From Comamonadaceae bacterium (lineage in GTDB: Bacteria > Pseudomonadota > Gammaproteobacteria > Burkholderiales > Burkholderiaceae_C), in NCBI GenBank assembly GCA_947456305.1, contig CANGPN010000001.1:62001-126000 (forward strand): a stretch of 64,000 nt of DNA, written 5' to 3'. The notes below the pieces were generated by a model, which saw nothing but the letters and a program-made list of their open reading frames with translations, had not been told where the DNA came from and searched no databases. Numbering within the stretch: position 1 is the first letter of the stretch; every line of letters begins with the position of its first letter. Positions 14,146 through 17,258 of this stretch are shown here, piece after piece. A program made the position numbers and the translations under genes.

Positions 14146-14189
14146 TGTAAATATATATTGACAGAATGATGTGTCAACTTAAAATCACA
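14146..14189 (+). promoter_or_regulatory. puc promoter overlapped by two PpsR/CrtJ-type boxes
   Basis: Two perfect TGT-N12-ACA boxes lie at 14146-14163 and 14172-14189. A sigma70-type promoter is formed by TTGACA (14158-14163) and TAAAAT (14180-14185) with a 16-base spacer. The right half of box 1 coincides with the -35, and box 2 covers the -10. TGT-N12-ACA is the established recognition pattern of the aerobic photosynthesis repressor PpsR/CrtJ. That the repressor exists in this genome is inference. Confidence 0.8.
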
Positions 14190-14290: not shown

Positions 14291-14437
14291 ATGTCAGATA
14301 AAGTAGGGCCAACAGGCCTGACAGAAGCCGAGTCAGAAGAAATTCATCGGCACCTCATCCAAGGGACGCAAATCTTTGGAATGATTGCAGCGTTAGCACA
14401 CCTGCTGGCGTACATTTATTCCCCTTGGCTGAAATAA
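14291..14437 (+). CDS. pucB: Light-harvesting complex 2 (B800-type) beta polypeptide
   Basis: A 48-residue inner-membrane antenna peptide binding bacteriochlorophyll a. The N-terminal GLTEAESEEIHRHLIQGT, a single membrane helix and the end SPWLK are typical of LH2-beta. His37 (ALAHLLAY) is the axial ligand of the long-wavelength bacteriochlorophyll. At the position of the family's conserved arginine (GTRVF in well-studied LH2), which hydrogen-bonds B800, this protein has Gln27 (GTQIF). A ribosome site AAGGAGATAACACC precedes the ATG. pucA follows after 12 bases. The gene is too short to be found by a length-filtered search. Confidence 0.95.
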   Translation: MSDKVGPTGLTEAESEEIHRHLIQGTQIFGMIAALAHLLAYIYSPWLK

Positions 14438-14449
14438 AAGGAGCACCAC

Positions 14450-14641
14450 ATGATCTACGGAAAAATCTGGACAGTGGTCAAACCTTCTGTCGGCATTCCC
14501 ATCTTCCTCGCAGCAGTTGCCATCGGTTCCTTTTCGGTGCACCTCGCTTTGACCCTGAACACCACATGGGTCAAGAAATTTTTGAACGGAAGTGCAGCAA
14601 GCGCAGCAGTCATTCAGACTGTCAAAACGCCTACTGCCTGA
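14450..14641 (+). CDS. pucA: Light-harvesting complex 2 alpha polypeptide
   Basis: A 63-residue partner of PucB in the LH2 ring. The motif KIWTVVKPSVGIPIFL is followed by one membrane helix with the bacteriochlorophyll ligand His31 (FSVHLAL) and the conserved NTTW at 37-40. Positions 44-45, which are Tyr-Trp in B800-850 complexes and hydrogen-bond the B850 acetyl groups, are Phe-Leu here. The Ala/Thr-rich tail (47-63) is a common betaproteobacterial extension. AAGGAG lies 8 bases before the ATG. It ends 58 bases before pucC. Confidence 0.95.
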   Translation: MIYGKIWTVVKPSVGIPIFLAAVAIGSFSVHLALTLNTTWVKKFLNGSAASAAVIQTVKTPTA

Positions 14642-16112: not shown

Positions 16113-16199
16113 ATGAAAGTTCAAACCGTTTTATTTATTATGTGGATCGTCGTCATGATTTTTCTGCTGGCGAATTGGTTTAACAAGCCGCGTTCCTGA
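16113..16199 (+). CDS. 28-residue single-span membrane peptide at the end of the puc operon
   Basis: ATG 16113 to TGA 16197-16199 encodes 28 residues, starting MKVQTVLFIMWIVVMIFLLA and ending NWFNKPRS. It is almost entirely one transmembrane helix with Trp at positions 11 and 22 and a basic KPR end. An excellent ribosome site, AAGGAG, lies 9 bases upstream. The gap to pucC is 48 bases and the next gene is convergent, so it most likely belongs to the pucBAC transcript. I do not recognise a family. By position it resembles the small extra genes (pucD/E) of other puc operons or the minor antenna subunits of reaction-centre complexes, but homology is not shown. Confidence 0.65.
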   Translation: MKVQTVLFIMWIVVMIFLLANWFNKPRS

Positions 16200-16208
16200 T
16201 GACAAGGC

Positions 16209-17258
16209 TTAGCTTTTGTCAGCCAAGCTCAGTGCCATGCTGAGTCCGCTGACAAAAGCATCCTCCACCCGGTGACCCAGCAGCCAGTCACCGCACACAC
16301 CTATTTTCAATTTAGCGTCCCAGTGATGCTTTTTGCCCATGGGCTGCAGGGTTTTGGCGTAACGCCACAAATGCGATTGCGTGAACCCGGGTTCGGCGCG
16401 TATCCCTGTCAATTCAGCGAAAGCTTTCAACAGTTTCGCGGTTACTCGCTCCTCATCGTCTTCCAAATGCTCTTGCGACCATTCGGCGCTGGCTTGTACC
16501 GTCCAGCGTTCGGTGGAGCTGCGCCCCGGTTTGGACGACTCGCGGGAAATCCAGGCGATGCGGTGGTGGGTGCTGCGGGCTGCGTTCCATTGCGGCCCCA
16601 GATGACTGAGGCCTGGCTGATTGGCCAGCGGGTAAGCCAGCATCAGGGTCCAGCAAGGCGCCACTTGCACTTTGGACATGTCATCCAAGCCGCTGAAACT
16701 TGCAGCAGGCGCACCGGATTGACGCAATAAAAAATCGGCTTGTACGTGCGGAATGGCTAACACCACGTGGTCAAACCCGCCGTGCTCGCTGCCGTCGCTG
16801 CACACCAGTTGCCACGGGCCTGATGTACCGTGTTTGCGCAATAAAAACTGGACTTGCGACTGCACGTGCAAACAACCGGCGTCCAGCAAAGGCTGTGCCC
16901 AATGCCTGAGCAAAGTGTTCATGCCCGGGGTGGCTACAAAGTGGGGTTCACGCAGCGGCAACGGCGCTTCGATCACGCGGCCCAAGGGGTCAAGCACCCG
17001 CACCGCGTTGGCGCTCCAGGCACGGCAAATGGCCTGGGTGCCGGGCACTTCCATGATGGCTTGCATGAACTGAGGATCACGCACGGTGAAATACTGCACC
17101 CCGTGGTCAAAGCCACCGTAGGCAGATGAGCGGGTGGCCATGCGACCGCCGGCACCGTGGCTTTTTTCAAAAATGCTGACTTGGTGACCCGCCTGCACCA
17201 AAGTGCGGGCGGCGGTGATGCCGGCCATGCCGGCGCCTATGACAGCAATTGTTTTCAT
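16209..17258 (-). CDS. Renalase-like FAD/NAD(P)-dependent oxidoreductase
   Basis: A 349-residue flavoprotein of the COG3380/renalase-like amine-oxidase fold. The N-terminal dinucleotide motif VIGAGMAGITAARTL is followed by a second FAD contact GAGGRMATR, and the C-terminus has GVCGDWLLGHRVEDAF, the FAD-closing motif. The substrate is unknown; bacterial renalases oxidise off-pathway dihydro-NAD(P) forms. It is downstream of a LysR gene on the same strand (9-base gap) and ends 9 bases from the puc membrane peptide, with which it converges. Confidence 0.8.
   Translation of the reverse strand: MKTIAVIGAGMAGITAARTLVQAGHQVSIFEKSHGAGGRMATRSSAYGGFDHGVQYFTVRDPQFMQAIMEVPGTQAICRAWSANAVRVLDPLGRVIEAPLPLREPHFVATPGMNTLLRHWAQPLLDAGCLHVQSQVQFLLRKHGTSGPWQLVCSDGSEHGGFDHVVLAIPHVQADFLLRQSGAPAASFSGLDDMSKVQVAPCWTLMLAYPLANQPGLSHLGPQWNAARSTHHRIAWISRESSKPGRSSTERWTVQASAEWSQEHLEDDEERVTAKLLKAFAELTGIRAEPGFTQSHLWRYAKTLQPMGKKHHWDAKLKIGVCGDWLLGHRVEDAFVSGLSMALSLADKS

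Follow-up and report, generated by a model that had tools for sequence, protein, structure and literature searches.

The colour of LH2 antennas is tuned by hydrogen bonds to the acetyl groups of their bacteriochlorophylls, and this mechanism is already known: two bonds give a low-energy band at about 850 nm, one bond at about 825 nm and none at about 800 nm, with the PucD form of R. palustris at 803 nm (PMC9618040, in extract). In the B800-820 complex of Rbl. acidophilus 7050, the single acetyl bond comes from alpha-Tyr41 (PMC9618040 and PMC6988754, in extract). This tyrosine is replaced by valine in PucD (passages of PMC6988754), which receives no acetyl bond from the C-terminal end of its partner beta (passages of PMC9618040). 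In Rba. sphaeroides, the double mutant Tyr44Phe/Tyr45Leu absorbs at 826 nm (PMC8775250, in extract). The same pair, F44L45, is described as a motif common to aerobic phototrophs with one peripheral-antenna peak near 800 nm (PMC12654162, excerpt of section 3.4.2), and a table of that review lists bands at 865, 813 and 799 nm for Limnohabitans planktonicus. Exclusive blue-shifted antennas have already been published, for some aerobic phototrophs (excerpts of PMC12654162; PMC3679898) and for Rhodoferax antarcticus (PMC5374385). A text search found no paper on PDB entry 9lt4, named B-800/814.

The window analysed here, a stretch of 64,000 nucleotides from a Comamonadaceae bacterium (GenBank assembly GCA_947456305.1, contig CANGPN010000001.1, positions 62,001 to 126,000), carries pucB, pucA and pucC as intact reading frames (Table 1). 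Residues, gene order, copy number, binding-site motif and lineage distribution are direct observations. The genome (2.59 Mb, 52 contigs) contains only two LHC pairs, pufBA on contig C6 and pucBA on contig C1, and a search for further copies, including any with Tyr-Trp, found no other pucA, in an assembly that is 86.9% complete, so that one could be missed. Downstream of pufBA on C6 lie pufL and pufM, and the same region also reads crtE, crtF, bchX, bchY, bchZ, pufC, crtD and crtC, all named by eye from translations. The nearest named records, filed under Comamonadaceae, Burkholderiales or Limnohabitans, are genomes assembled from metagenomes, and the names of several refer to ponds or lakes. 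The puc and puf genes lie on one contig, with a distance of about 6 to 42 kb between them, in nine genus-mates (G002, G005, G012, G018, G019, G021, G023, G030 and G035), whereas they are on separate contigs in the window's genome; since this arrangement differs among genus-mates, the puc operon seems to have changed place in the course of the history of the genus.

Table 1. Features of the pucBAC locus, with positions counted from the first nucleotide of the window
Feature	Position	Strand	Remark
PpsR/CrtJ-like palindrome TGT-N12-ACA, distal	14146..14163	+	start 145 bp before pucB
PpsR/CrtJ-like palindrome TGT-N12-ACA, proximal	14172..14189	+	start 119 bp before pucB; 26 bp from distal, start to start
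pucB, LH2 beta, 48 aa	14291..14437	+	best PDB match R. palustris LH2 beta (7zdi), E 8.8e-19
pucB codon 27 (CAA), Gln at -10 from B850 ligand His37	14369..14371	+	Arg in the five LH2 betas compared
pucA, LH2 alpha, 63 aa	14450..14641	+	PF00556 LHC, 31.7 bits (cut-off 23)
pucA codon 3, Tyr	14456..14458	+	beside B800 ligand end (Asn3 in Rba. sphaeroides, Gln3 in acidophilus)
pucA codon 31, His	14540..14542	+	B850 ligand
pucA codon 41 (GTC), Val	14570..14572	+	where the 820 nm complex has Tyr41 keeping one acetyl bond
pucA codons 44-45 (TTT TTG), Phe-Leu	14579..14584	+	cannot donate acetyl hydrogen bonds
pucC, LH2 assembly factor, MFS family, 454 aa	14700..16064	+	PF03209, 503.5 bits (cut-off 21)

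PucA translates as MIYGKIWTVVKPSVGIPIFLAAVAIGSFSVHLALTLNTTWVKKFLNGSAASAAVIQTVKTPTA, with His31, Trp40, Val41, Phe44 and Leu45. We compared it with PDB chains by phmmer, and it runs in the same numbering as the LH2 alphas, gap-free in the five alignments printed, so that the residue numbering of the solved chains carries over to it. The earlier note on this DNA had read His31 and Phe44-Leu45 in PucA and had opposed the Tyr44-Trp45 of the acidophilus B800-850 complex to the Phe-Leu of its B800-820 complex. Both readings are borne out by the translation and by the alignment, in which positions 44-45 hold Phe-Leu in exact LH2 register: the alpha of 1kzu (acidophilus B800-850) has Phe41 and Tyr44-Trp45, and that of 1ijd (acidophilus B800-820, strain 7050) has Tyr41 and Phe44-Leu45. 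The best match of PucA is 7ze3 (R. palustris PucD, E 4.5e-16), with Val41 and Phe44-Met45; the Rba. sphaeroides alpha (7pbw) has Leu41 and Tyr44-Tyr45 and shares Ser27 with PucA. The locus is of the peripheral LH2 type, the best PDB matches of both PucA and PucB being LH2 chains and not LH1. The B850 ligand histidines are present (alpha His31 and beta His37, i.e., His0), and the N-terminus of PucA is equal in length to those of the alphas of nonameric LH2s.

As it has Val41, PucA should lack every acetyl bond, as PucD does, and the C-terminal end of the PucD partner beta is nearly the same as that of PucB. The nearest homologue with a published spectrum, from L. planktonicus II-D5 (L128), shares Val41-Phe44-Leu45 with PucA. 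It is well supported by these residues that the sole LH2 of the organism would be a blue-shifted antenna. By analogy, our best estimate for its low-energy band is about 803-815 nm, the best single guess being 813 nm beside a band at about 799 nm, and most close relatives probably also absorb at about 800-815 nm. The earlier note had suggested that a blue-shifted antenna may be the only, or one of several, LH2 forms. The blue shift and the sole form are upheld (one pucA found in the genome, no two-donor alphas among those read in the genus), and a duplicate low-light copy was rejected; the note's label of a B800-820 type proved too specific, since PucA has Val41 and not Tyr41 and L. planktonicus is listed at 799 and 813 nm.

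Two known spectral types compete with this estimate. A "high-800" complex resembling LH4, with the band merged with B800 into a single peak at about 803-806 nm, is unlikely here, even though PucA has no donor at alpha 41, 44 or 45, the closest solved alpha, PucD (Val41-Phe44-Met45), gives a single 803 nm peak, and a review gives F44L45 as the motif of LH4 in aerobic phototrophs (PMC12654162, in extract). L. planktonicus, which is nearer in sequence, is listed with two peaks, and the betas of six Val41-Phe-Leu loci of family f95 keep the arginine, so that their B800 site differs. The true B800-820 complex that was first proposed, resembling LH3 with a band at 818-826 nm, is improbable too. PucA shares Phe44-Leu45 with the acidophilus B800-820 chain, and Rfx. 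antarcticus has Phe-Phe and absorbs at 819 nm. Moreover, the Phe-Leu double mutant of Rba. sphaeroides reaches 826 nm despite its Leu41, which means that the absence of Tyr41 alone does not force the band below 820 nm. However, with Val41 the bond that Tyr41 makes in the 820 nm complex is lost, 813 nm is the band listed for the nearest homologue that has a spectrum, and no second, B800-850 form was found beside this one, the sole pucA of an 86.9% complete assembly, in a genus with no two-donor alpha among the 49 read.

A different architecture, i.e., a second concentric ring (LHh) around LH1 as in Gemmatimonas, is very improbable and was rejected on sequence grounds. Its peak is similar (816 nm; PMC12817894, in extract), the possibility has been raised for Limnohabitans (passages of the review PMC12654162), and PucB weakly matches the Gemmatimonas beta chain 7o0u_BA (E 7.3e-6). 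On the other hand, PucB is far better matched by LH2 betas, and no Gemmatimonas chain (7o0u-7o0x) appears among the PucA matches at E 10 or better, against LH2 alphas down to the E value of 7ze3, although the Gemmatimonas alpha displayed in these PDB comparisons, with 16 chains per entry, is probably the LH1 alpha rather than the LHh alpha. LHh is also stated to originate from LH1 (PMC12817894, in extract), whereas in the window pucBA stands apart, together with pucC. An antenna gene that is decaying or unused, its residue pair devoid of meaning, is most unlikely: degenerate pucA copies exist in two relatives (G366 and G024) and 34 of 84 genus genomes are without an LH2 alpha match, but pucB, pucA and pucC are intact here, the upstream sites are common to most relatives, and 46 of the 49 genus alphas retain Phe-Leu, spelled with differing synonymous codons.

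An LH2 alpha match is present in 50 of the 84 genus genomes, that of the organism itself included. We could read 49 genus alphas, picked regardless of residues 44-45 (one in each of 47 genomes and two in G030); the alphas of G001, with unknown bases at the site, and of G024, lacking most of the helix, were unread, and second partial matches at contig ends in G036 and G1283, which stop before residue 44, were left uncounted. Apart from the 46 Phe-Leu alphas, the remaining three are Tyr-Leu (G1248, G1247 and G1242), and no Tyr-Trp or Tyr-Tyr alpha, i.e., with two donors, is found among the 49. In the family, 25 of 399 genomes matched; two weak matches (L208 and L209, E about 4e-4), lying inside ORFs of more than 960 aa, were dropped as spurious and not antenna genes, and the 23 left have eight Phe-Leu, nine Tyr-Tyr, two Tyr-Trp, two Phe-Phe, one Phe-Val and one Tyr-Leu. 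Phe-Leu is thus nearly fixed in the genus and not in the family, where two donors in 11 of 23 alphas indicate that the state can change. The order search gave 30 of 399 genomes and 31 places, of which 30 loci were read (the second place in G337 was left out): 25 Phe-Leu (one degenerate), two Tyr-His, one Tyr-Tyr, one Phe-Met and one Phe-Tyr. In the phylum search, 12 of 398 genomes matched. A set of 80 loci was found with query peptides, one of which contains Phe-Leu, so that this set is biased towards Phe-Leu.

At the DNA level, residue 44 is encoded in the 49 genus alphas by TTC (28), TTT (18) or TAC, for Tyr (3), and Leu45 uses all six leucine codons. The use of varied synonymous codons for Phe-Leu means that the amino acids are kept and not the DNA, and that the pair is not due to chance. 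On a tree of PucC (59 rows), the product of a neighbouring gene and hence independent of residues 44-45 themselves, the pair has changed at least 15 times, and Phe-Leu versus the rest at least 12 times; with 21 of 56 inner branches well supported, these counts are rough. Residue 41 did not vary significantly together with Phe-Leu (of 6 starred pairs, 4.4 went the same way and none the opposite, median p 0.125). No pucA of the f95 kind was found on plasmids.

Several observations were made along the way. Phototrophy is patchy in the genus: among 37 genus genomes, there is no LHC match in G003, G009, G013, G017, G020, G028, G029, G031 and G033, and some LH2-less genomes are 99-100% complete. A genus-mate (G030) has two pucBA (L057 on C91 and L058 on C5), both with Val41-Phe44-Leu45 and beta-Gln, the second of which may be draft contamination. 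In G024 (94% complete draft), L054 (C169, about 16150-16260) is a pucA with in-frame loss of most of its membrane helix, between Pro17 and Trp40, either a real truncation or an assembly collapse. In G366, L170 (C29, about 2000-2200) is a degenerate pair, its pucB ending after the first part and its pucA having TGA at codon 7. Finally, MAGs titled Rickettsia typhi, Bordetella parapertussis and Akkermansia muciniphila (L077, L082, L102, L119 and L124) carry Burkholderiales-like pucBA and look like misnamed bins.

A second difference, on which the earlier note was silent, concerns the B800 site. In studied LH2s, the beta arginine at -10 bonds the B800 acetyl; it is absent from PucB, which has Gln27, and PucA starts with Ile2-Tyr3. 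In Rba. sphaeroides, where Arg(-10) makes this bond, its replacement by Leu, Glu or Phe shifts the B800 band to 786, 789 and 783 nm, respectively, and by Met leaves it at 800 nm (PMC6358721, in extract). These mutants without Arg(-10) still bind B800 (same excerpts), so that the arginine is a feature of the studied LH2s and not an absolute definition. In the same species, the network of bonds around B800 includes both Arg30 and alpha-Asn3, and changes of Arg30 also weaken the carotenoid response to membrane potential (PMC8775250, in extract). Among the relatives, we found the start of the alpha and the -10 residue of the beta to be strictly associated: among the 166 readable betas of 173 loci, Ile-Tyr alphas go with Gln betas (146/146), and Asn-Asn, Asn-Gln or Thr-Asn alphas with Arg betas (20/20). 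When identical pairs (alpha 1-48 plus the beta core) are counted once, 104 of 104 Ile-Tyr pairs have Gln and 17 of 17 others have Arg, five more Ile-Tyr pairs being without a readable beta. In the order sample taken by itself, which was assembled regardless of these residues, the counts are 23/23 and 5/5, respectively, and in the family sample 19/19 and 4/4. The pocket state changed at least three times on the PucC tree; a single clade of the beta-Arg rows is not rejected (p-AU 0.125), so that the three changes may be one inherited event and not repeated co-evolution. Three LH2 pairs with an Asn-Gln alpha start (L205, L206 and L207) carry in the beta a Gln (ELQQGLVEGTRIF) at the place of the histidine that other betas have near B800.

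Ile-Tyr/Gln pairs occur with Phe-Leu, Phe-Phe, Phe-Met, Phe-Val, Tyr-His, Tyr-Leu, Tyr-Tyr and Tyr-Trp at 44-45, and with so many states the change at B800 is distinct from the tuning of B850. The 799 nm band that L. planktonicus keeps suggests, by analogy, that Gln27 or Tyr3 could act as the B800 acetyl donor. A text search of the open-access literature found no description of the Gln(-10)/Tyr3 change in titles or abstracts, and this lineage-wide variant of the B800 pocket is apparently the new, unreported part of our results. We tentatively propose, as a possibility that could well prove wrong, that the LH2s of Burkholderiales form a class of their own with the beta-Gln(-10) and alpha-Tyr3 pocket, in which one of the two side chains would hold the B800 acetyl (B800 at about 799 nm without arginine) and the arginine-tied carotenoid field response would be weakened; the B850 site would have been retuned many times on this fixed pocket and kept at 800-815 nm in lake-water lineages because this light passes through water better than light of 850 nm does. 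The absorption of water is lower at about 805 nm than at about 850 nm.

Upstream of pucB lie two tandem copies of TGT-N12-ACA, presumably the PpsR/CrtJ motif. Among 134 distinct 260-bp pucB upstream regions, 108 contain at least one copy, against 7.3 expected from mononucleotide shuffles. In the window as a whole, the total is not above chance (15 versus 19.2 expected), and only the clustering upstream of pucB is. The genome also has a PpsR/CrtJ gene on contig C6 (394 bits, cut-off 275). Given the predicted sites ahead of pucB and the presence of ppsR in the genome, pucBAC is probably repressed by PpsR. No TGT-N12-ACA is found within 260 bp upstream of pucB in the cultured Limnohabitans L113 and L128 and in other Limnohabitans-type loci. 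The puc genes of Limnohabitans sit within the photosynthesis gene cluster (PMC12654162, in extract), and the absence of the sites may go with this position.

Putting these elements together, the joint explanation that we favour, with a probability of roughly 0.72, is that pucBAC encodes the sole LH2 of a Limnohabitans-like freshwater Burkholderiales phototroph, the only peripheral antenna found in it. For ring form, hydrogen bonding, wavelength and regulation, we infer the following. PucBA would most likely form an ordinary ring, in which neither acetyl of the coupled bacteriochlorophyll pair would be bonded, as Phe44, Leu45 and Val41 should be unable to donate. The low-energy band would lie at about 803-815 nm and not at 850 nm, and energy would pass steeply downhill to LH1. 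Repression by PpsR would probably act via the two tandem sites, and the B800 pocket would be a lineage variant in which beta-Gln(-10) and alpha-Tyr3 replace beta-Arg(-10) and alpha-Asn/Gln3. Back-transfer from the core becomes slower when LH2 is blue-shifted, as in mutants of Rba. sphaeroides and in low-light cells of acidophilus (PMC8775250, in extract). For Gemmatimonas phototrophica, the 816 nm band has been argued to fit light deeper in the water column (PMC12817894, in extract), and this argument may, by analogy, also apply to the present antenna. While blue-shifted LH2s are usually presented as low-light extras, here such an antenna is the only LH2 form in a genus of lake bacteria, in which it is almost fixed. 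Moreover, on one beta-Gln background, the Burkholderiales pairs range naturally over Phe-Leu, Phe-Phe, Tyr-Leu, Tyr-His, Tyr-Tyr and Tyr-Trp; with them, the tuning of colour bond by bond and the part played by the B800 arginine can be tested on natural, not mutant, proteins.

Among known systems, the antenna of L. planktonicus II-D5 is the closest: it has the same Ile2-Tyr3, Ser27, Val41, Phe44-Leu45 and beta Gln(-10), with pucC in the locus, and its alpha is identical to PucA at 40 of 50 residues (21 of 24 over residues 24-47). It differs by its upstream region without TGT-N12-ACA within 260 bp and by the position of the Limnohabitans puc genes inside the photosynthesis cluster (per the excerpted review, PMC12654162), whereas the window's puc genes are off the puf contig. 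PucD-LH2 of R. palustris (LH4, 803 nm; 7ze3) is like PucA in Val41, Phe44 and the absence of acetyl donors, and differs in Met45, Asn2-Gln3 and the retained beta Arg; it is one of several LH2 forms of its host, made at low light, while the window's is the sole one. The B800-820 LH3 of Rbl. acidophilus 7050 (1ijd) shares Phe44-Leu45, but its Tyr41 gives one acetyl bond, it is a low-light extra form, and only 25 of 50 alpha residues are identical. The LH3 of Rfx. antarcticus, a betaproteobacterium, resembles ours as a blue-shifted antenna from a sole puc operon without donors at 44-45, and differs by its Phe-Phe. Its authors termed it unique among purple phototrophs (PMC5374385), which is contradicted by the aerobic phototrophs of PMC12654162 (in extract) and, by inference, by the window's genus. 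In the same phylum, six family f95 loci (L177-L179, L183, L185 and L186) combine Val41-Phe-Leu with an Asn-Asn start and beta Arg. The Roseobacter-type high-800 LH2, i.e., the LH4 of aerobic phototrophs, has F44L45 in common with the window's and is an exclusive, constitutive peripheral antenna (PMC12654162, in extract), but with a single peak near 805 nm. Finally, the LHh of G. phototrophica (816 nm) is similar in band position and differs in its origin from LH1 and its double ring (PMC12817894, in extract).
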